From the NCBI RefSeq assembly GCF_048128805.1, contig NC_136000.1:13660854-13724853 (forward strand): DNA of 64,000 nucleotides, given 5' to 3'. This document shows positions 29,948 to 63,887 of this stretch, piece after piece (positions within the stretch are counted from its first letter, which is position 1; the number at the start of each line of letters is the position of its first letter). The translations under genes and the position numbers were made by a program. Under the pieces are notes generated by a model. The model searched no databases. It worked only from the letters and a program-made list of their open reading frames with translations, and was not told the origin of the DNA. This DNA is from Centroberyx gerrardi. Taxonomy: Eukaryota; Chordata; Actinopteri; Beryciformes; Berycidae.

Positions 29948-32654
29948 TCATAGAAGATCATAGAAATAATCCAGTCCTTGTCCTAATTCCCACATGGAAA
30001 TTCCTGTGCCCAGTTCGGTAGCTAAAGACATCCTCAGGTAGATGGACTGTAAAAGAATAAAAAAAAAAATCTTAATCATTTTAATCTCACCATGAAACAG
30101 TAAAAATTCTAAACATATCATTAAAGTTTGATAGTAAATGGCAAAAAGTCTTAAAAATATAGGTTGCTACTGTGTTTACCAACAAAGCTTAAAAAACTTA
30201 AAATGTGAGGGCTTTACCTTCAGAGTTGGATAGTACACTACATGCTTAACTGCATTGTTCCTAGAATGAAAGGGAAGTAACAAATATTGTTAAAAGATGC
30301 CAGTGGATGTCAGCCATAGTTTGTTCACCTAAATAACAGCATTATACAATCATTACCTCTTGTAACTGAAATAATGCTCCGCAGCATATTCATCCCAGAG
30401 AAGTTTTGGCCTAAGTTCTCGCAAAATCTCAATGTACCTGCAGAGAAATAGAGATCGATGTAAGAGGGAGTGGTAAAGAGTGAAATATATGAAACCTTAA
30501 ATTGCTCAAATGTAAATACACTATTACTATTACAAATTACGAGCAATTACAGTGTTATCTTACCTGCCCCCCAGGATAGGCTCTGTTCCTTGGCTTGCAA
30601 AATCTAGACCATACAAATTAAGTCCAAGCAGGATCTTTTGTCTCCATTGATTGTCAGGTGACAACTGGAGAACACAGTCTCTCACCCAGGGCAGGGGGGA
30701 GCTTGGGCCCGGTCTGAAACAAAAAATACCCCAAACCACTGTATTTAAGTGCTTTATGTAAGAGACAAAGCTCTGAATCTAGCTGCACTGCTCATTTATT
30801 CAGGTCATGCCACCTAAAGCAATTCCATTTCAACCAATCAGAATAGATGGACACTGTGTCTGTGAGCCTCACCTGCCAGCGTTGGAGTAGTCGTATGTCA
30901 TGAGGCTGAATGCATCTACGACTGGAGCCAACTGCTCAAACTCCTCCCTGCCAAACATACCTGGCTGCCCCGTGCTGTTCATAATGGAAAGATATGAAGA
31001 TATTAAAAATTCAGCATTTCTTTCAGCAACTTTGTGGCATTTATACTGGTTAAAAGAAAACAAATTGTATTCACCTTGTCACAGGAGGTGGAATGACAAG
31101 GATACAGTCTAGTCTTTTAGCCTTCAAAGTCTCACATATGTGTTTTATCAAATGGACCAGCTCCCTGCATGGAATAGATTAAATAGTGTTTGGTTATTTG
31201 CATTACACACTTGATACTGTAGCAGCAAGCAATTTGAGTAATAATAAAGATGTGATGTGTTAATAGATTAACTCACTTTCGTTTGTTACCTCCCAGCTGG
31301 CTCCACAGCTCCAAAGTAAAACCATCAAAGCCTTCTGTCTGCAAGACCAATGCTTAATTAGACAGAAAACAGCACAAATACATTGTCGCTAGGGAGTAAG
31401 CTATGCAATACTGTGGCTGCTTCTGGCAGCTCATGTTGCCTCTGCATTTAATTACCTTTGCAACGTCCACCAGCTCACTTCCCAGCTCTTCAATTTCATC
31501 TTCACTGCCAAGCACACTTGCGTAGTCCTGGTAAGACCAGCCATCAAATAACAGTCGAGGCACTGAGAATGAGAAAGAAAATGACCGAACAGTGAGGTCA
31601 GGATCAAATTAACTTAAATCACTGGCACTGACCCGAATTAACAGATCTGAGTTGACTTGTAGCGGCCATTAGAGAGGAAGATATCTACTCACCCATCCTG
31701 ATTTTTTTGTTAGACTTGCGCACAGCTTTGACCCAGCCTGGAAAGAAAAGATTCTTTTAGTTGACATAATTAATTTGTTGTGACACTTTACTAAGGAGGC
31801 CAAGTCCTTACAAAGAGTGTTTCATATTTGGCTGCTAGTGATGTGAACCTCCTACCTGGGTCGTGGTCGTGGAGGCCGGTAACATCAAAGCTTTCTAGTC
31901 CCCGTCGGCGAAGCTGAAGCCACACTGGAGACACTGAAGTCAGTTTGGACCCAAATATCTTGGCTATGTCATAGCCATGGGAATTCCACTACAGGGAGGA
32001 AAAAACAGGAGATATAATGCAAATATTGTGTCAACACAAGTCCATAAACCTACATATGAGACACTAATGTTGTGGTAATAACATTGTTGTCAGCTGATTA
32101 GGGCACACTACATGTTGGACAGCAAAAAGTCAGCATGCAGATATTACTGAATGGATTTCAGACTTACAGGTGTGATGTATCCAAGCACAGGTCCTTGAAA
32201 AGTCCGTTTAATATGAGCACAGTATCTCTTCTCCTCCTTCACTATGTCTCTCCACTGCGGGTCTGACACAACGAGGCCTCTCTCCACCGCAGACAACTCT
32301 GCTAGAGATGTCTATCAGTGCAGAAAACCGTGGGTTCAAAGAAAGATTAGCCCATTTCAGACAGATATCCATCTATAACTGGTTATACCATATCATGACA
32401 AAAACCATCTGACTGGACAAATGTCAGGTGGTGATATCACATTTGGTATGTGCTGACGGTGCACTTCCTGATGCTGACAGATTCAGGTGAGTCCAGTGAC
32501 TGACATCAAACACAGCTCACACCCAGTCTAGGGGCCACAACTTACTCACCTCTGCCTCAGCTTTGGGCGACTTCTTTGCATCAGTTTTTGAAAGTGTGGC
32601 ACTAACCATCAAGCAGCAGGAGATGGTGTGCAACAGGATTAACGTCGCTCTCAT
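29948..32654 (-). CDS. chid1: Chitinase domain-containing 1 (stabilin-interacting GH18-like protein)
   Basis: CHID1 (SI-CLP) is a secreted or lysosomal GH18-fold protein that binds saccharides and stabilin-1 but is not thought to be an active chitinase. Exons in transcription order: 32550..32654, 32168..32311, 31856..31988, 31693..31737, 31456..31562, 31277..31338, 31075..31164, 30873..30974, 30564..30713, 30357..30437, 30218..30260, 29948..30046 (386 aa). The N-terminus [17 protein letters not shown] is a signal peptide. Landmarks: [52 protein letters not shown], and DGFTLELW at the site of the GH18 catalytic strand. That strand lacks the Asp ladder of true chitinases, as expected for CHID1. 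Later: [17 protein letters not shown] and the end [18 protein letters not shown]. Head-to-head with ighmbp2. Confidence 0.95.
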
Positions 32655-41984: not shown

Positions 41985-44588
41985 CCTACATCGTGGATGC
42001 GTTATTTTTTGCAGAAATATGCATTTTGGGCCTACATGGCACACCGTAGTACATGTGATGCGTCTGGTTTTTAAAGCGAGGTCCACAAATATCAAAAGAA
42101 CCACTTATTCTCACTTTCAGTGCACTTTATTTTCATGACAAAAATGATTTCATATTTAACACATGGTAAAATGGTTTGACTTAGATGCATAAATAATATT
42201 AACAATGCATTTCAGTCAGTTCCTCTAAATCATAGAATTAATGATTAAATCAACATAGTATCTAGAAAAAAAAAATCCCATATTACAATTCTACATGTAC
42301 TTAAATTTTGTGTTTTTATTGCATTAATCCTCTGAAGAGGGGAAGGCTTGGAGGCAAAAAACAGAGGTAGTTTAAACCATTAAAATGAGTGGTTGTTCTG
42401 TCAGCAATCGGAAACAGATATCAGGTTCAAAGTTTGTTTTAAATATCACAGAGCCTAGTTAAAGTCAAGAGTACAAAAAAAAATAAATCTAAACACTGTA
42501 GATAGTATCTATGCTGTACAATTGTCAGTAAATAAGTTTTACATTGACCATAATTGGGGTAAACAGACAATGAATTTAAACTTGATGTATTGTTTGGCTT
42601 ACAAGAGGCACAGGGAGCTCAGACAAGAACAGGGAAAGTGCTGTCCGGAAGTGAAGTCAATCAGTGATGTGTTTCTACAATGAAAACATAAGTGCTTGTG
42701 CAGTATACGTAAATGTCTTGGTCTCTCTGTTTATGCTGTCAACCTTGCAGTAGTCACATGTATGGATAGAGGAAGGAAAATATTTTACAGTGAGGTTTCA
42801 TGTTCTTCAAAAACTTCTATTTTACAGCTCGGCTTGTCTGCATTGCTCACAGTTGTGCGATGAAATAAGTTGTTCACCTCTCTTAGCTGTAACAGTTCGG
42901 ATAATTGGATGACAGTATCTGTTGAAATGGTTTTGTTCCTGTAGCATCAAGCATTTAAGGTGTTTTCACCATAAGAATCAACTTATCGATGTTTAACCTT
43001 ACCTTAAGAAACATTTTAAAATACAACACTTTACTGTACTACACAAGGACACCACACTCTTCTTAAAAAGCAATTTAGTATAAGCAGCTTACAGTTTTTG
43101 AGGAAAATCTATATGACAAACTCGATCTATGCCCTGATCAACTTCCAAGTCTCATTTTGATTGATGAGGCTCATCATAATTGAAATAAGCATACAATTAA
43201 ATAAACACATTTGAATTGTAAAATACTGTAATAAACAATTTTGAAATAACAAGTAAATATGCATACAGTTATTTTGAAACAACATCAGCAACAATTGATG
43301 TGATCCATCTTTGCTGCTCAGTATTGCAAATAAAACATGCAACAACAATTCAAATGGTAGCTGAGCTCTCTTCTTTTCAATTTTACTGTTTTGTCTCGAA
43401 GTCACAATGCCACCCTTTCCTAATAAAAAATCTCTATTTTACCATTGAGATTTTACCAATCAAATCATATTTACATATAGCTACAAATATCAAAACACCA
43501 CAGTAATACAAGTATCTTTTCCAATTAATTAATTTGACATGTAAATGATTGGTCAGATAAGATCATTTCCCAATATTACATAAGGCTTTCCTTCTCAACA
43601 ATCTTTAGACTTAAATTGCAACAAACTTTCTGTTACTGTCAGACTTAAGAGGAAAACATTTCCTGAAATAAACGCTGGATAGAATAGGAATTTATATGAA
43701 TAACACAATGTGTGTTGATCCTGTTCCTTAATCTCCAAGAATAAGGAAAAAAAGAGCTGCGTACGCCTGCTTAGTAAAGACATACTAGTTTTTAGATTTG
43801 TTAAGAGATTTTAGTTAGTTTTAGGTTTTACAAAGAAATCAAACTCAAACAAATTAGCACTAGAATATTATGTACATGAATATAATAATAAATACACCAT
43901 ATCTGAAGTTAATGGTAGCAGTAATATCGTATGTTCTCTACCCTGAAATGACAATATGAACAAACAGTTCCAAACAGTCCCAGAAAATACTGTTTGGTAT
44001 GAAACTGTACACAGTGTTATAATCAAAATCCATAATATGTCCCTGGTCGTTTAGCAGTTGGATGTACAATAAAAACAAATGCTGAAATTTCAACAACAAA
44101 CCCTGTGTCTAAGATTACTGATATATCACTGAATGTTAAACAATTATTCTTTTATAAATCCTTTTATCATGCCTCCAGTACAATTGTAAAGCATATAATA
44201 GCAAATAGACTAAATTATAAATTCTCTTTGCTGCTCCATATTCCTTTCTAACTGTATTCTAAAGTCATCAGAAACAATGTCGGATTCCTTCTTCAGCTTA
44301 TGTTGAAATGTAATGTTGCCAGTTAGGCCTTCTTGGTTAGCTGTCATTTACAGATAGACATCTGTAAAGAACCAGTAAAGACGTGGGTGCCGGGATTCGG
44401 AGCCTCAATCTGGGCCTCTTGGTTCTGTTCAACGTCCTCGGCACAGAGCAGCGAATTATCACTCCTCCTATATAGTCAGCACATCCAGAGGCAACCTGCT
44501 TCTCATAGTTCAATCAGGAGCCTGTGTGGCTGAAGTTGGAGCATCACGCTGTGTCCTGCAGATCCAACGCACAAACACGGCCGTACAA
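41985..44588 (-). other. rapsn: Probable long 3' UTR of rapsn
   Basis: 2.6 kb of AT-rich sequence without supported exons. A minus-strand AATAAA (tttatt at 42126-42131) is the clearest poly(A) signal and would give a 3' UTR of about 2.4 kb. Part of it may instead be intergenic. Confidence 0.4.
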
Positions 44589-55530: not shown

Positions 55531-58500
55531 TCACTTTTTCCTCCCCCTTTGTGCTTGACTGTTTTCAGTACGCCTAGACTTGGTCTTGGTTTTGGTCCCT
55601 GATGACTCCAGAGAAGCCAGCTTTTTCTTGAGCTTTCCGTCCCCAGCAGGATGTCTTCTGTTCCTGCTGGAGCGCTGCTGACTCCCTCGCTGGCCTCTTG
55701 AGCCTTCCACTTTGGATCTCATTTCCTCCTGTTTGTTCTGCTTACTGATCATCGAGTCTTCCCGGTTCCACACTAGTATGTTAACCCCTGTGAATGAACA
55801 TCAAACAGCTTTAGCAAGACAACAATTTCCCCTCTTTCAAAGAGATGAGTCAAGAACAAGTCTTGACTTGATTGATTTGCATGTATTTGGAAAAACTCAC
55901 CCATTCCAGATCCCATAATATCGCCCATTGGACTGAATTTGTTGACCTATAAACAAATGTGTCCAGGTGTTATTAGGTGTTATATAAAATATAGTTTCAA
56001 CATCTTGAAGGTCTTTATACTGTACTTAAAATGTACATACAGATATGATTCCGGGGGCGTTGGGATCTCGCAGCTGACACACAAGCTCTGCTGTGTTGGA
56101 GTCAAAGATGTCGACGGTCCTCTGATCACCGCGGCAAACCCTCTCATCAGGGTAGCGGCCAGCCACAATGAGGTCATACACAGGGTGCCATGTGGCCTGC
56201 AGAAAAATGGACAAAATACCAAGTTCAAGTTTGAACCTTTTTCTCCAAGGTTTTCTCCTAGGCACTTGGTTTTGCAGCAAGTATTAAACCAAGTATTAAA
56301 TAGAGCATTATATAAAAATAATACAGCCACTACGACAAATGGTTCACAAGTTATTGGCTAAAACGTAAAGTTGCTCATTATAGCGCCACCATCTGACGGA
56401 GTGTCATTTTTTGGACTGACTAGTGGGAGAGATTTGAAACCTATCCACCAAATTTGGTAGCTCTGAGACTTACAGTAAGGTCTCTGAGATCAGATTGTTT
56501 TAAGGCAGAAAAAGAAGGAGCAGCAGAAAAATCAAAATCAATGGGGTTCCAGCTCCTGAGATGCTTGGAGCCCTAATAAGACTGACAGGCAGTCAGTCAC
56601 AAATAGAGGGAGTTGATGCAGAGTTTCAGGCAGGCAGCATAAGACAAATCATCATCATCATGTAATTCATCTGAGTCATCATGACCCAGTAGGAGACATC
56701 AGCAACAGGTTCATTACATCAGCAACAGGAGGATCCTTGCTCATCTACAGCGGAAACCAACCTTGATGGGTGTGAGATGCTGAAACTGCCTGTGTGGATG
56801 TTGGATGATATGTTGAGGCTTTGACCAATCAGAGGACGAGTAGACCCGGATCTGGTCATACTGATCTGTGGTGAGCAGCTTGGAGCAGTCCAACGGACTG
56901 AAATAGGCTGTGGAGAGAGGACAGTGACCACGCCATCAAAATGTGACCTGTGTAAGAGTTTCTGTACACCTATTATTGTCAAATGAATTGTGATAAGAAT
57001 CATGGGGATACGTTCTAAAGCCCCTGTAAACTGTTCTTTCTACATGCTTTATTATTTCCTCTCCATACTGCCTTTGATGTGTAACTCACCAGTCTACTAA
57101 AAAGATATATAAGATTTTACATCAAATAAAGCCAGAGAACTTCCAAATTGCACTAAATGGAAAAACAATAATGACAATTTTTATTACCATTTGAATGTGC
57201 CATCACAACTAAAGTTAATGCACATATAAATTAAAAACACTGCTTTTCAAAATGCGACTGCAGACTCCCAGAGGGTCCCCTCAAAATTTACGACAAGTCA
57301 CATTGTATTATTATATAATTTCCTACTCTGCACATGTGTCACAATCTGTTTTAGGCTCCTCAGCCAAAATTCCTTTCTGCATGGAAAAGTTTGAGAACAC
57401 ATTGAGAACACACATTGAGAACACACTATGCAAAGGAAAAATGTTTCTAAAAGCGAGTGTTACCTGAGTTGACAGCTTTGTCATGCGGCATTTCATGGAG
57501 GAAGCTCTTCTTGTCTTTAATGTTCCTCAGGTCCCAGAGCTTGACAGTGTGGTCAACAGAGGCCGTCGCCATCAACCAATCACAACGGGAGTTGAACTCT
57601 GCATGGGTCACTTTGGCTTTGTGCAACTTGTTACTGAAAATCTACGATATAAAATGAGGAACAAAGCCATTAACAATTAACATCCACATACTTTTTCAAT
57701 TCATAAAAACATCTTTGGACCTGATTATCTAATGTGACAGATACAAATTGTCTTTAGTACGTAAAAGACAATACAAGGCTTTCGCAGTCTCGTCAAAACG
57801 TAGGAGAACGAGTCAAATCTACGCACTAATATTATTTACTTAATTGTTGAATGAATCCACACCTTTTGGCCGTCCATACTCAGGAGCAGGAGCTGTCCCA
57901 TATTGTCCCCCGTCACCAGCATCTGTCGGCTCACAGACACGTCAAGACAGCAGTACCAGTAACTGTGTAAGCAAGCACAGGTGGCTGTTAATGCCTATGA
58001 CAGATAAAACATTAAACATGCATGAAGCCATGAGTTCCATAGCACTATACAAAATTGATGATGTGATAATAGTGAAATTACTGCTTATCAAAACAACGAT
58101 AGACATTTAAAAAAAAATTCAACTGTGGATGATTCCAGTATTACAAATAGATCTTAGATGAATTTCACATAGTTGAAATATACTACATATTCCTTGTACT
58201 CCTTCCTTGTACAGTGGATAAACCTGTACTATTCCTTTTCCTTTAACATCATGTAAAAAACGCGACTACACCATTTCTCTGTTGAGCATCAGTCTTCTCT
58301 GTACTAAAGGCCCTGAATCCTCACCAAACGTCATGGTGATCATGGCCACAATCTTGAGTTGTGGACAGAACAGTGGATGTTCGGCCCTCAAAGCTCTGCA
58401 TGGTCAGTGTGCCATCACCGGAGGCCACATAGACTTTGGAAAGGTCCATTGGGCAAAACTTCATCCCTCCGATAAAGTCTCCGGCTCCTTTCTGTGCACA

Positions 58501-60258
58501 AAAAAGACAAATGCAGGCCTATCACAGGGTAGTTATAGCACTACACCACCACATTAATGGTAGCATTGATTAGATAAGGGCCGCAATAAGAGACTGATAC
58601 TGGACTGACCAAGCAACAGCAGACCTACAACAACCTTAGTGTTTCCTGACCCACATCCACACTGACTTTGTCTTACAGAAAACGAGGGGACTTTATCTTA
58701 CTCCGTGGCATCTGTGTCGGCAAACACTCTTAGAGACATCCCATTGAAATCTCGAAGTGCTGTGGCACCCCCCATAGATGAGGTGAACAGCTGAGTGGGA
58801 TTTAACGGGTTAAACTTCATGTCTGTAACTGAGTCTCCGGCCCCCATCTAAGTAGAGAGCAGATAAAAGCGTGTCATCAAGGAAGATGGGAGACGATTTA
58901 TTTTCCGGCGCCCACAATTTCCTAATAATTTCCTAGAAAGGAACTGTTAATTTCTTAGGAGGTTTCCTGGAAAGAACCATTACATTATGTACAAATTATA
59001 GGGAAAATAGAGAAAGAGTTCAATGGTAGTTGGTAGTTGGTAAGTACCTCCAATTTCGTCTCCAAGACAGAACCATGAAATAGAATAGAATAGAAAACCA
59101 GAAATTAACTAAAATGAATTAGGAATCCAACAAATAACTTTATTATATAATTATATGAATAATGACTTATGATAATTGACCTCTGACTATTATTTTTCCA
59201 ATATATAGTTTATAGTTTTGCAGTTCTCTCCAGGAAATTCTTTTAGAAATGTACAGTATCTTATCATATCTGCTTACATTTTCTGTATAACTACTACATC
59301 ATTTCATGGTTCTTTCCAGGAAACCTCCTAAGAAATGAACAGTTCCTTTCTAGGAAATTATTAGGAAATTGTGGACCCGGAAAATAAAGCATTACCGGAA
59401 GATGACATGGTATCAAAATGAATTTAGGCCTCAGCATAAAATTCAACCTTGACATCATAGCGTTGCATTTGATAATATGTAGTTGCTGCATTATTCATGA
59501 GCAACATTTTAAAAGGTGCTGCTTGTTGAGCATCTCCTGCTGCCAGTCATTCAACAAAGTGTCAGGCAAGATAAATCAGTTTTGACAAGAGCAAGATTTC
59601 CCTTCTCTCTCTCACCCCTTGAATAAAAGTTGTCTTGTTGAGTGCGTCAAAATCCCACAGAACAATATCCCCACCCTTGGATCCAACAGCCAGTGTGGTG
59701 GGATGGGTGGGGTGCCATTCAAGACAGGTGATTCTGCGGTCAAAGGGGCTGGCGGTGCGGTGGAGCCTGTAGGAGCACAGGGAGCGGACAAAGGGCCCCT
59801 GCAGACACTGGAGGGGGAGGGGAGGGGGGGGGGGTACAAGAGTTGGGTGTGAAGATGTTCATGATGTCCTGGTCACTCTGCACTGACTACAGAGGAAACT
59901 GACCAGCAACCTCACCTGTCTCATTTGAGAGTGAAGACTTTGCCCCAGAGTGCTCTTATAAATGTAGTGCAAGATGCTTCTATGACCCCCTCTCTTCTGG
60001 ATTCCTGGACACTTACTGATTTTGAGAGACGGTCCTGAAAGAAGCAGAAACCTACTTAAGTACAATTATCACGACACGCATTATTCACTTACAACGTCGG
60101 TGTATTGAATGGCGGGAATGTAGACCTGGTTTTGATGTGTCCCCCTCCATCTTTTCTCGTAGTTTTTTGGAGAGAGTTCTCCCGGAGTTCTCCCCGGTTC
60201 TCTTCTTCACTTTGCCCTTCGATTCAGACGCATCTGACTGTGCGGGTCTACTTTTCAT
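55531..60258 (-). CDS. ddb2: DNA damage-binding protein 2 (XPE), with alternative exon pair
   Basis: WD40 subunit of UV-DDB that recognises UV photolesions and recruits CUL4-DDB1 for nucleotide-excision repair. Exons in transcription order: about 60096..60258, 59916..60034, 59616..59807, 58702..58847 (or 58325..58491), 57863..57962, 57464..57641, 56762..56907, 56041..56196, 55901..55946, 55531..55787 (about 500 aa). Helical N-terminal part: [22 protein letters not shown] repeats: [52 protein letters not shown], and the DDB1-binding WDxR as VKLWDLR. The damage-probing hairpin FQH is kept ([13 protein letters not shown]). The C-terminus is a basic tail of about 75 residues, longer than in human. 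Exon 1/2 junction: the strong donor GTAAGTG would create TGA across the splice, so a GTTGTA donor 3 nt upstream is used here. That point is uncertain. Confidence 0.93.
56371..56578. repeat. Fish interspersed repeat in ddb2 intron
   Basis: AGCGCCACCATCTGACGGAG, CCACCAAATTTGGTAGCTCT and an end CTTGGAGCCCTAATAA match a repeat type I recall from teleosts. No terminal repeats were found, and the family is unknown. Confidence 0.4.
58325..58491 (-). other. ddb2: Second, mutually exclusive version of ddb2 exon 4
   Basis: 167 nt, fully open. A good acceptor (TTTTTTGTGCACAG) and donor (TTTG then GTGAGG) flank it. It starts in phase 0 and ends in phase 2, exactly like exon 58702..58847. Its product starts [20 protein letters not shown] and ends [10 protein letters not shown]. 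The canonical exon starts [20 protein letters not shown]. The two share the GAGD, MKF, P, G-T and F-G framework of one WD blade. Joining both in one mRNA shifts frame and soon stops, so only one can be used. Confidence 0.75.
58897..59388. mobile_element. 492-bp foldback MITE in ddb2 intron 3
   Basis: Arms 58897-58980 and 59306-59388 are inverted copies with only a few differences over about 83 nt. Both start TTTATTTTCCGG and contain CACAATTTCCTAATAATTTC and GGAGGTTTCCTGGAAAGAAC. No ORF. A target duplication cannot be told apart from the palindromic ends. Confidence 0.8.
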
Positions 60259-61755: not shown

Positions 61756-63887
61756 ATGATACGGCCGATGTGAGTAGTGCTGAATAGTTTTTATGTATCA
61801 TGCTGAAAATATTTTGTCAACGAGTAGTATGCTGTTTCTTATTGTTATTTTGTAGATACGGCAATGACGACGGAGTCTAAACAAACGGTAACTAACGTTA
61901 GCTGGTTGGCTAACCAGCTGACTAGCCAACGGCTAGGTTAACGTAGCGTAACTTAATGTAACGCAAAGCTAACACTGAATTGTTGCTGGTTTGACTGAAA
62001 TCTGAATTATTTTTCAGGAAGGGTAGAACCCCTCGTAGACCTCCCAAGAAACCTTCCAGCAACCAGAAAGACCCTGTTGGGGTGAGTAACGTTACCCATA
62101 TATAATAATAAAAAAAAAAACACCTAACCTAGCTAAGGTTAGTTTCAGGAGTAAGCAAACCATAGCTAGCTAGTTACAGCTCGCTGCTAACACTTACAGG
62201 TATTTCAAAGCCTAGAATGAGCAACTAAGTTACTAGTGATTAAGTGGTAACTGCGATAATGTTAGAACCTTCTCTGTCTGGGACGCATTTTACCGTATTT
62301 AACTTTATGTTATTTTTATTTCTGATCAGGTGTACTGCCGTGTACGACCTTTAGGTGTCGAAGATGAGGAGTGCTGCATTGAAGTAATCAGCAGCACCAC
62401 CATCCAGTTGCACGCACCAGATGGCCTCAAAGCCAATCGGAATGGAGAGTTCAAAGAGGTAGTTATATAAAGCTAATGTAACAGTAGTCAATACATTATT
62501 TACACAATGTTTCTTAACGTTATTCACCCAATTTGTGATTATTTAAAGTTTCATATATTCTAATGTGCTAAACCTGAATAGCCCAACCCATCTCATTTAC
62601 CTCTCAGACACAGTATTCCTTCAAAAAAGTCTTTGGAAATGCAACATCTCAGATGGAGCTATTTGAGGATGTTGCCAAATCTCTTGTGGATGACCTCATC
62701 CATGGAAGAAACGGTAAGAGTATTGGCCAACGGCAGAAGTGTTGTATGATTCTCAATAACAGATAGCTGTGTTAAATTAAACCCATCTGCCTGATTTTGC
62801 TACTTTCTACCAACAGCTGCAGTATCTGACTATCCTTTTTATACTACATTTTAAACAAGTATACCCAGACACCAGGGTTTGAATAACTTTGGGACTATGA
62901 TTGGCAGTTAAGATTCTCTCTACTCTTCTTCATTATTGCTTCTTTGTTGTAGGGCTGCTCTTTACGTATGGGGTCACAGGAAGTGGTAAGACCTTCACCA
63001 TGACTGGCTCTCCCGGCCAGGGCGGACTTCTACCTCGCTCCCTTGACATGATCTTCAACAGCATAGGCTCGTACCAGGCCAGAAGATATGTAAGAGAGTA
63101 GCACTAAAGAATCTCTGCATATAATCTTCTATATCCCACACTTTGTCAGAGTGTCTTGATTATATTCACTCCTTTGTAAAATCTGTAGACTTGAATCTTA
63201 AATCAATTTATTTAATGCCATTCTTCCTATTTGTTCAGGTTTTCAAGACAGACGATAAAAATGGAATGGAGACACAGAATGAAGTTGATGCTTTGTTGGA
63301 GCGCCAAAGGCGGGAAAACCAGCCATCTGTGCCTAAAACTCCTTCCTCCAAGTAAGTTTGAGTGCTGTGAAATGCCAGTAATCTGCTGAAATAAATATTT
63401 GATGCAGTCATGTCTATTTATTTCACCAACTGTAATTCACTACTTTGACATTTTCAGACAAAAGCTTGATCCTGAATTTGCTGACATGATTAAGCCAGAG
63501 GAGGCCTGCAAGGCAGATGGTGTGGATGAGGACAGCAGCTACAGTGTCTTTGTCTCCTACATAGAAATCTACAACAACTACATCTATGATCTCCTTGAGG
63601 AAACTCCGTATGACCCAATCAAACCAAAGTGAGTTCAGGCAATGTGAACTGAAGGGAATTTGATATTTTGATTGAAAAGGATTTGCAGGAAAATAATGAA
63701 TCTGTATCATGACTTTATTATTAACAGTTTAGTGTAAGAGTAGTCAGATATTAAAAAGATTGTTAATTTGTAGTGATCATTAGAGCTGTTTCCTTCCTGG
63801 TAGAGTAGCTGGCAGATAAAATGTTTCTGTTTCTTTTGTTAGGTGGAATGGTGGAGGCACACCTATGCGACAGAACACTGAGTTCAT
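61756..63887 (+). CDS. kif23: Kinesin family member 23 (MKLP1), 5' part, continues beyond the window
   Basis: Kinesin-6 motor of the centralspindlin complex (with RACGAP1), acting at the spindle midzone and midbody in cytokinesis. Exons seen: 61756..61769, 62018..62081, 62330..62458, 62608..62713, 62953..63089, 63239..63351, 63458..63628, 63843..63887; all phases agree. Start [20 protein letters not shown], then [14 protein letters not shown]. The P-loop is [11 protein letters not shown]. The kinesin-6 insertion loop contains [14 protein letters not shown] and DPEFADMI. It is followed by [20 protein letters not shown]. The switch motifs and tail lie past 64000. Head-to-head with ddb2, unlike the human arrangement. 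Confidence 0.96.

Follow-up and report, generated by a model that had tools for sequence, protein, structure and literature searches.

DDB2 (XPE), the lesion-binding subunit of UV-DDB, is the sensor that global-genome repair uses for UV dimers in chromatin. A cryo-EM structure of human UV-DDB bound to a nucleosome that carries a cyclobutane dimer (PMC12606344) shows contacts to the dimer from residues G154, A155, G156, I200, N201, and W203; of these, I200 and N201 reach its methyl groups and are positioned away from 6-4 photoproducts and abasic sites. Splicing of DDB2 in human stomach cancer is described as chiefly exon skipping (PMC9858704), and mouse Ddb2 shows retention of intron 2 (PMC11264951). 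Homologous alternative DDB2 exons are not reported in the titles and abstract openings of the papers listed by literature searches on DDB2 splicing. In one of these searches, DDB2 is absent from the 25 papers listed of 169; it is absent from the text, supplements apart, of two human surveys (PMC5740500 and PMC9741552), and the main text of the latter does not contain the word "repair." According to that survey, more than 90% of the human tandem-exon substitution events have counterparts in bony fish (PMC9741552). A described pair of this kind is formed by exons 4a and 4b of OGDH, which exclude each other through distant branch points located close to the 5' splice site (PMC7969005).

The window analyzed here, a stretch of 64,000 nucleotides from Centroberyx gerrardi, contains a complete ddb2 gene on the minus strand (positions 60258 to 55531), modeled with ten exon positions, AG/GT borders, and consistent phases (Table 1). 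Its products match human DDB2 across the propeller (E = 1.6e-124), and residues 55 to 424 of the form that carries exon B align with residues 20 to 382 of the zebrafish DDB2 chain (E = 2.8e-178). The top PDB matches are 4a08 and 3ei1 from zebrafish and 9j8w and 6r8y from human; both the whole gene and its exon A resemble the DDB2 of these two species. The 13-residue sequence of the FQH hairpin, which in DDB2 occupies the position opposite the lesion, is present and aligns with human F334-Q335-H336. By its full-length WD40 propeller homology the product is DDB2, and it is predicted to bind lesions together with DDB1. Its C terminus (positions 55531 to 55787) runs 73 residues past the part aligned with the zebrafish PDB construct and forms a basic tail rich in Lys, Arg, and Ser. 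The neighbor of ddb2 on the opposite (plus) strand encodes a kinesin-motor-like segment at positions 62985 to 63110, with a 14-residue sequence that presumably resembles KIF23/MKLP1. The window also has five exact matches to the D-box consensus TTAYGTAA, none of them past position 43583.

Table 1. Exons of the modeled ddb2 gene and associated elements (positions in the window)
Feature	Position	Strand	Basis or remark
E1, with ATG	60126..60258	-	3' end uncertain, donor weak; A/B results independent of the E1 edge
E2	59916..60034	-	Gene model
E3, constant exon upstream of the pair, ends in phase 0	59616..59807	-	Gene model
Repetitive inverted-repeat (MITE-like) element	58902..59384		In the intron directly upstream of exon A
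Exon A (146 nt, entered in phase 0 and left in phase 2), the canonical exon of DDB2	58702..58847	-	Human residues ~153-201; final codon split with E5
Intron of 210 nt separating A from B	58492..58701	-	Exon coordinates
Exon B (167 nt, entered in phase 0 and left in phase 2), the diverged alternative with a DCGHDHHDV tail	58325..58491	-	Matches DDB2 in PDB by itself
E5, constant exon downstream of the pair, entered in phase 2, with the Trp equivalent to W203	57863..57962	-	Gene model and alignment
E6	57464..57641	-	Gene model
E7, FQH hairpin region	56762..56907	-	Gene model and alignment
E8	56041..56196	-	Gene model
E9	55901..55946	-	Gene model
E10, with stop codon	55531..55787	-	Gene model

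A search of the fish's own genome (779 Mb in 278 contigs) with a 363-residue DDB2 query gives seven matches, all seven inside this one locus; thus, the genome has no retrocopy from which the transcribed exon could be read off. Exon B has a single match in the same genome at an E value of 0.001 or better. No DDB2 relatives are found in viral contigs or prokaryote genome contigs (two scans each), as expected. There is no DDB2 family among the Pfam matches listed (best 25 of 29 and of 30 families), and the two exon peptides alone give zero matches in NCBIfam.

The original prediction held that exons A and B are tandem, mutually exclusive exons for the same WD40 blade. Recomputation returns the same coordinates, lengths of 146 and 167 nt, uninterrupted frames, and AG/GT sites, and the two exons agree in splice-site type and reading frame, each being entered in phase 0 and left in phase 2. 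Their lengths of 48 and 55 codons lie within the difference of up to 20 amino acids allowed for tandem exons (PMC3228551). The product with exon A alone has 490 residues and that with exon B alone has 497, each open from the ATG through the natural stop. Exon B is seven residues longer than exon A and ends in the DCGHDHHDV tail, just as predicted. A motif common to both exons is indeed present, with a spacing slightly different from the one first given; the correct form is GAGD....MKF.P.........S..G......F.G. Over 45 aligned residues, A and B share 14 identities. Exon A has 27 of 45 identities to zebrafish and 26 of 45 to human DDB2, and exon B has 16 of 45 to each, which bears out the description of A as close to the human and zebrafish exon and of B as diverged. 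The 55 residues of exon B, used alone as a PDB query, retrieve DDB2 first (human, E = 4e-4; zebrafish, E = 0.01; next unrelated entry, E = 0.11). This match falls on human residues 154 to 196, the position of exon A, and on no other blade. With splice-site scores based on human frequencies, the acceptor of exon B ranks first of the 96 AGs and its donor first of the 99 GTs between E3 and E5; the acceptor of exon A ranks second and its donor eighth.

The blade was predicted to lie beside the DNA-binding surface. This is the right area, but the statement is too modest: as placed by alignment, five of the six dimer-contacting residues of human DDB2 fall in the swapped exon, with W203 located in E5 and the codon for N201 split between the swapped exon and E5. 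The G-A-G triplet is retained in both exons. The stretch from the V193 equivalent to the W203 equivalent spans 9 residues in exon A, as in human, and 16 in exon B: the loop that precedes the tryptophan reads FADTDATDY in A and is replaced in B by a 16-residue sequence. The I200/N201 loop is thereby extended by 7 residues and closes with a 10-residue segment right before W203 (11 residues when counted as the end of the stretch preceding the tryptophan). With five dimer contacts in the exon and a longer loop in B, the pair would swap the dimer-specific side of the pocket and keep the remainder; exon B likely changes the lesion pocket, and we infer that the swap may alter lesion choice. A strict residue-level reading is unsafe, since the I200/N201 contact varies even among A-type exons, with T/D at these positions in Centroberyx gerrardi and W/D in zebrafish. 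The C-x2-H-x-H-H-x2-C spacing in the exon B loop might, speculatively, indicate metal binding.

The reading that we favor, at a probability of about 0.7, is that A and B arose long ago by tandem duplication of a single DDB2 propeller exon and are used mutually exclusively, with the B form differing at the lesion pocket. This architecture is well supported by the reading frames, the homology, the scores of the splice sites, and the constraint over time, and the two exons are a real and probably functional mutually exclusive pair from which two DDB2 isoforms are predicted. The A form would act as the canonical sensor of lesions. In the B form, the G-A-G photoproduct contact and the common tryptophan would be kept and the loop lengthened from 9 residues to 16. 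Because this loop occupies the place of I200 and N201, which contact the dimer methyl groups in human DDB2, the B form would bind lesions at the pocket with a different preference or affinity, with the FQH hairpin and other parts of the propeller unaltered.

The age of the pair and the pressure on it are reflected in the substitutions between its members. Over 44 codons, synonymous sites are saturated (pS = 0.91) and replacement sites are not (pN = 0.44), which argues that A and B have long been constrained. When exon A is left to drift neutrally (4,000 simulations for each value of d, in neutral substitutions per site), the score of B against human DDB2 is kept in 46% of the runs at d = 0.2, in 2.1% at d = 0.4, and in none of the 4,000 at each of d = 0.6, 0.8, 1.0, and 1.5. 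At d of 0.6 and above, the simulated third-position change is 0.41 to 0.64, versus 0.80 observed, a rough comparison because the observed value is a two-branch sum and saturated. The simulations speak for a long past constraint, which is not the same as proof of present function. Such a record would also be left by a duplicate that was once used and lost its function recently, so that exon B is now a relic spliced in no longer or only as noise. The branch leading to exon B is long (about 1.0, versus 0.2 to 0.4), and B has altered 10 of the 19 residues that are invariant among A, zebrafish, and human, both of which could alternatively come from relaxed constraint; the GC content of its three codon positions (0.56, 0.45, and 0.51) carries no coding signature of its own. 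A young relic could stay open as well: at d = 0.05, 34% of freely drifting copies of exon B still look intact (with our own indel rate), and the 46% that keep the score at d = 0.2 point the same way. However, exon B combines the top-scoring splice sites of the interval, a fully open frame, the right phases on both sides, and strong past constraint, and we consider decay to a relic unlikely.

The reading frame sets the terms of exclusion. As originally proposed, the frame is lost both when the two exons are joined (stop at codon 207) and when both are skipped (stop at codon 155). Transcripts with both exons or with neither would be frameshifted and either removed or translated into a truncated protein, and productive mRNAs would therefore hold exactly one of the two. 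Branch-point exclusion of the OGDH type is unlikely here, given that the AG-exclusion zone of exon B is just 27 nt. This short zone, together with the 210-nt intron between A and B, makes frame loss with mRNA decay the likelier and simplest enforcer. The same stops would serve a poison exon, in which inclusion of both exons or of neither leads to decay, splicing tunes the amount of DDB2, and the B protein arises only incidentally. A study of cavefish and zebrafish reports induction of ddb2 by light and UV and, in zebrafish and a cavefish, UV-dependent stabilization of ddb2 mRNA, which would suit such a dosage switch; nevertheless, its main text contains neither "isoform" nor "splic" (PMC7891740). 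A pure poison exon needs no open DDB2-like frame, and the constraint on B acts on protein sequence, which leaves dosage control as the main role of the pair improbable.

The splice sites of exon A are the weaker ones: on the same scale of human frequencies, its donor scores 0.5 and that of exon B 3.8, and the acceptors score 4.8 and 7.4, respectively. No RNA structure is seen between exons A and B; a strong inverted repeat sits upstream of exon A. The arms of this MITE-like element (positions 58902 to 59008 and 59278 to 59384) are 107 nt long and 88% complementary, and the nearer one ends 54 nt from exon A. An arm has at least 40 scored matches in the genome, including the ddb2 copy, at 90 to 100% identity (drawn from 685 candidates; the two arms of one element may score twice). 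The element folds as RNA at -201 kcal/mol, against a mean of -114 for shuffles (z = -12.7), and the resulting hairpin lies near the acceptor of exon A, whose use it may affect. The poorer donor and the hairpin-forming repeat just upstream led us to consider that exon B is the main exon in Centroberyx gerrardi and that exon A is weakening. Against this, exon A is common to human and zebrafish and well conserved, and consensus scores predict exon usage poorly; a takeover by exon B is very improbable.

Within the 64-kb window, tblastn with exon A finds exon B as the top match besides exon A itself (E = 6e-6), followed by E3, a further propeller exon (E = 2e-4). In a scan modeled on WebScipio (PMC3228551), which uses a relative BLOSUM62 score with our own gap costs and may therefore differ from the original, exon B scores 0.22 against exon A, above the WebScipio default cutoff of 0.15, that is, a relative score of 15%. 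Dinucleotide shuffles of positions 58704 to 57960 reach at best 0.012, and none of 100 reaches 0.15. The same scan finds no candidate scoring above 0 in the introns flanking the seven other internal ddb2 exons tested. At thresholds of 7.3 for the acceptor, 3.7 for the donor, and 60 to 300 nt in length, only two open exon-like pairs of sites with phases 0 and 2 exist on both strands of the window. One of these is exon B. The other, with equally strong splice sites, lies on the minus strand at positions 31456 to 31562. A 55-codon stretch is open at random in about 7% of cases by simple arithmetic, but the coincidence of DDB2 homology at the same position, matching phases, splice sites, and 0 of 100 shuffles leaves a negligible chance that exon B is an open intronic stretch that resembles exon A by accident.

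The old, mutually exclusive pair favored above admits a bolder version, which we put forward tentatively and regard as doubtful. Ray-finned fish would have kept a splice switch in the DDB2 pocket since before the split from zebrafish, perhaps since early bony vertebrates; form A, like human DDB2, would recognize dimers and 6-4 photoproducts, form B would serve a different set of lesions, such as abasic or oxidative damage, and mammals would have lost B. The 10-residue His/Asp/Cys segment of the loop would then adjoin the pocket tryptophan and possibly bind metal. Fish also repair dimers by photolyase, which could free one DDB2 form for other lesions.

The age of the pair in the favored reading can be gauged from sequence comparison. 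Three quartet-informative residues place B with human and A with zebrafish, and none supports either of the other two groupings; with a likelihood gain of only 0.7 to 1.1 lnL units, this is a hint that the duplication may predate the separation of Centroberyx gerrardi from zebrafish. The DDB2 entries in PDB (8 distinct sequences) score 99 to 123 bits with an A-type query and 59 to 66 bits with a B-type query, and none is B-like. The zebrafish chains among them fit the A type and are silent on the further content of the zebrafish gene.

The pair, if true, would be a case in which splicing acts directly on the recognition of damage, and two natural forms distinguished by nothing but their lesion contacts would offer a ready-made swap experiment on lesion discrimination by DDB2. 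A pair kept in fish and absent from human, if it is indeed absent there, would be an informative reverse case. Exons A and B resemble the vertebrate tandem mutually exclusive exons described in PMC9741552 in that they are homologous neighbors with equal phases, swap one structural region, and largely keep the key residues; in contrast to those, the swap in ddb2 hits the DNA-lesion pocket. With exons 4a and 4b of OGDH, as described in PMC7969005, they share the mutually exclusive homologous arrangement, the short intron between the two exons, and the occurrence in fish, whereas exclusion in OGDH works through the branch point and exon B of ddb2 has an AG-exclusion zone of 27 nt. The splicing is thus of a known kind, and its place in DDB2 is unusually telling.
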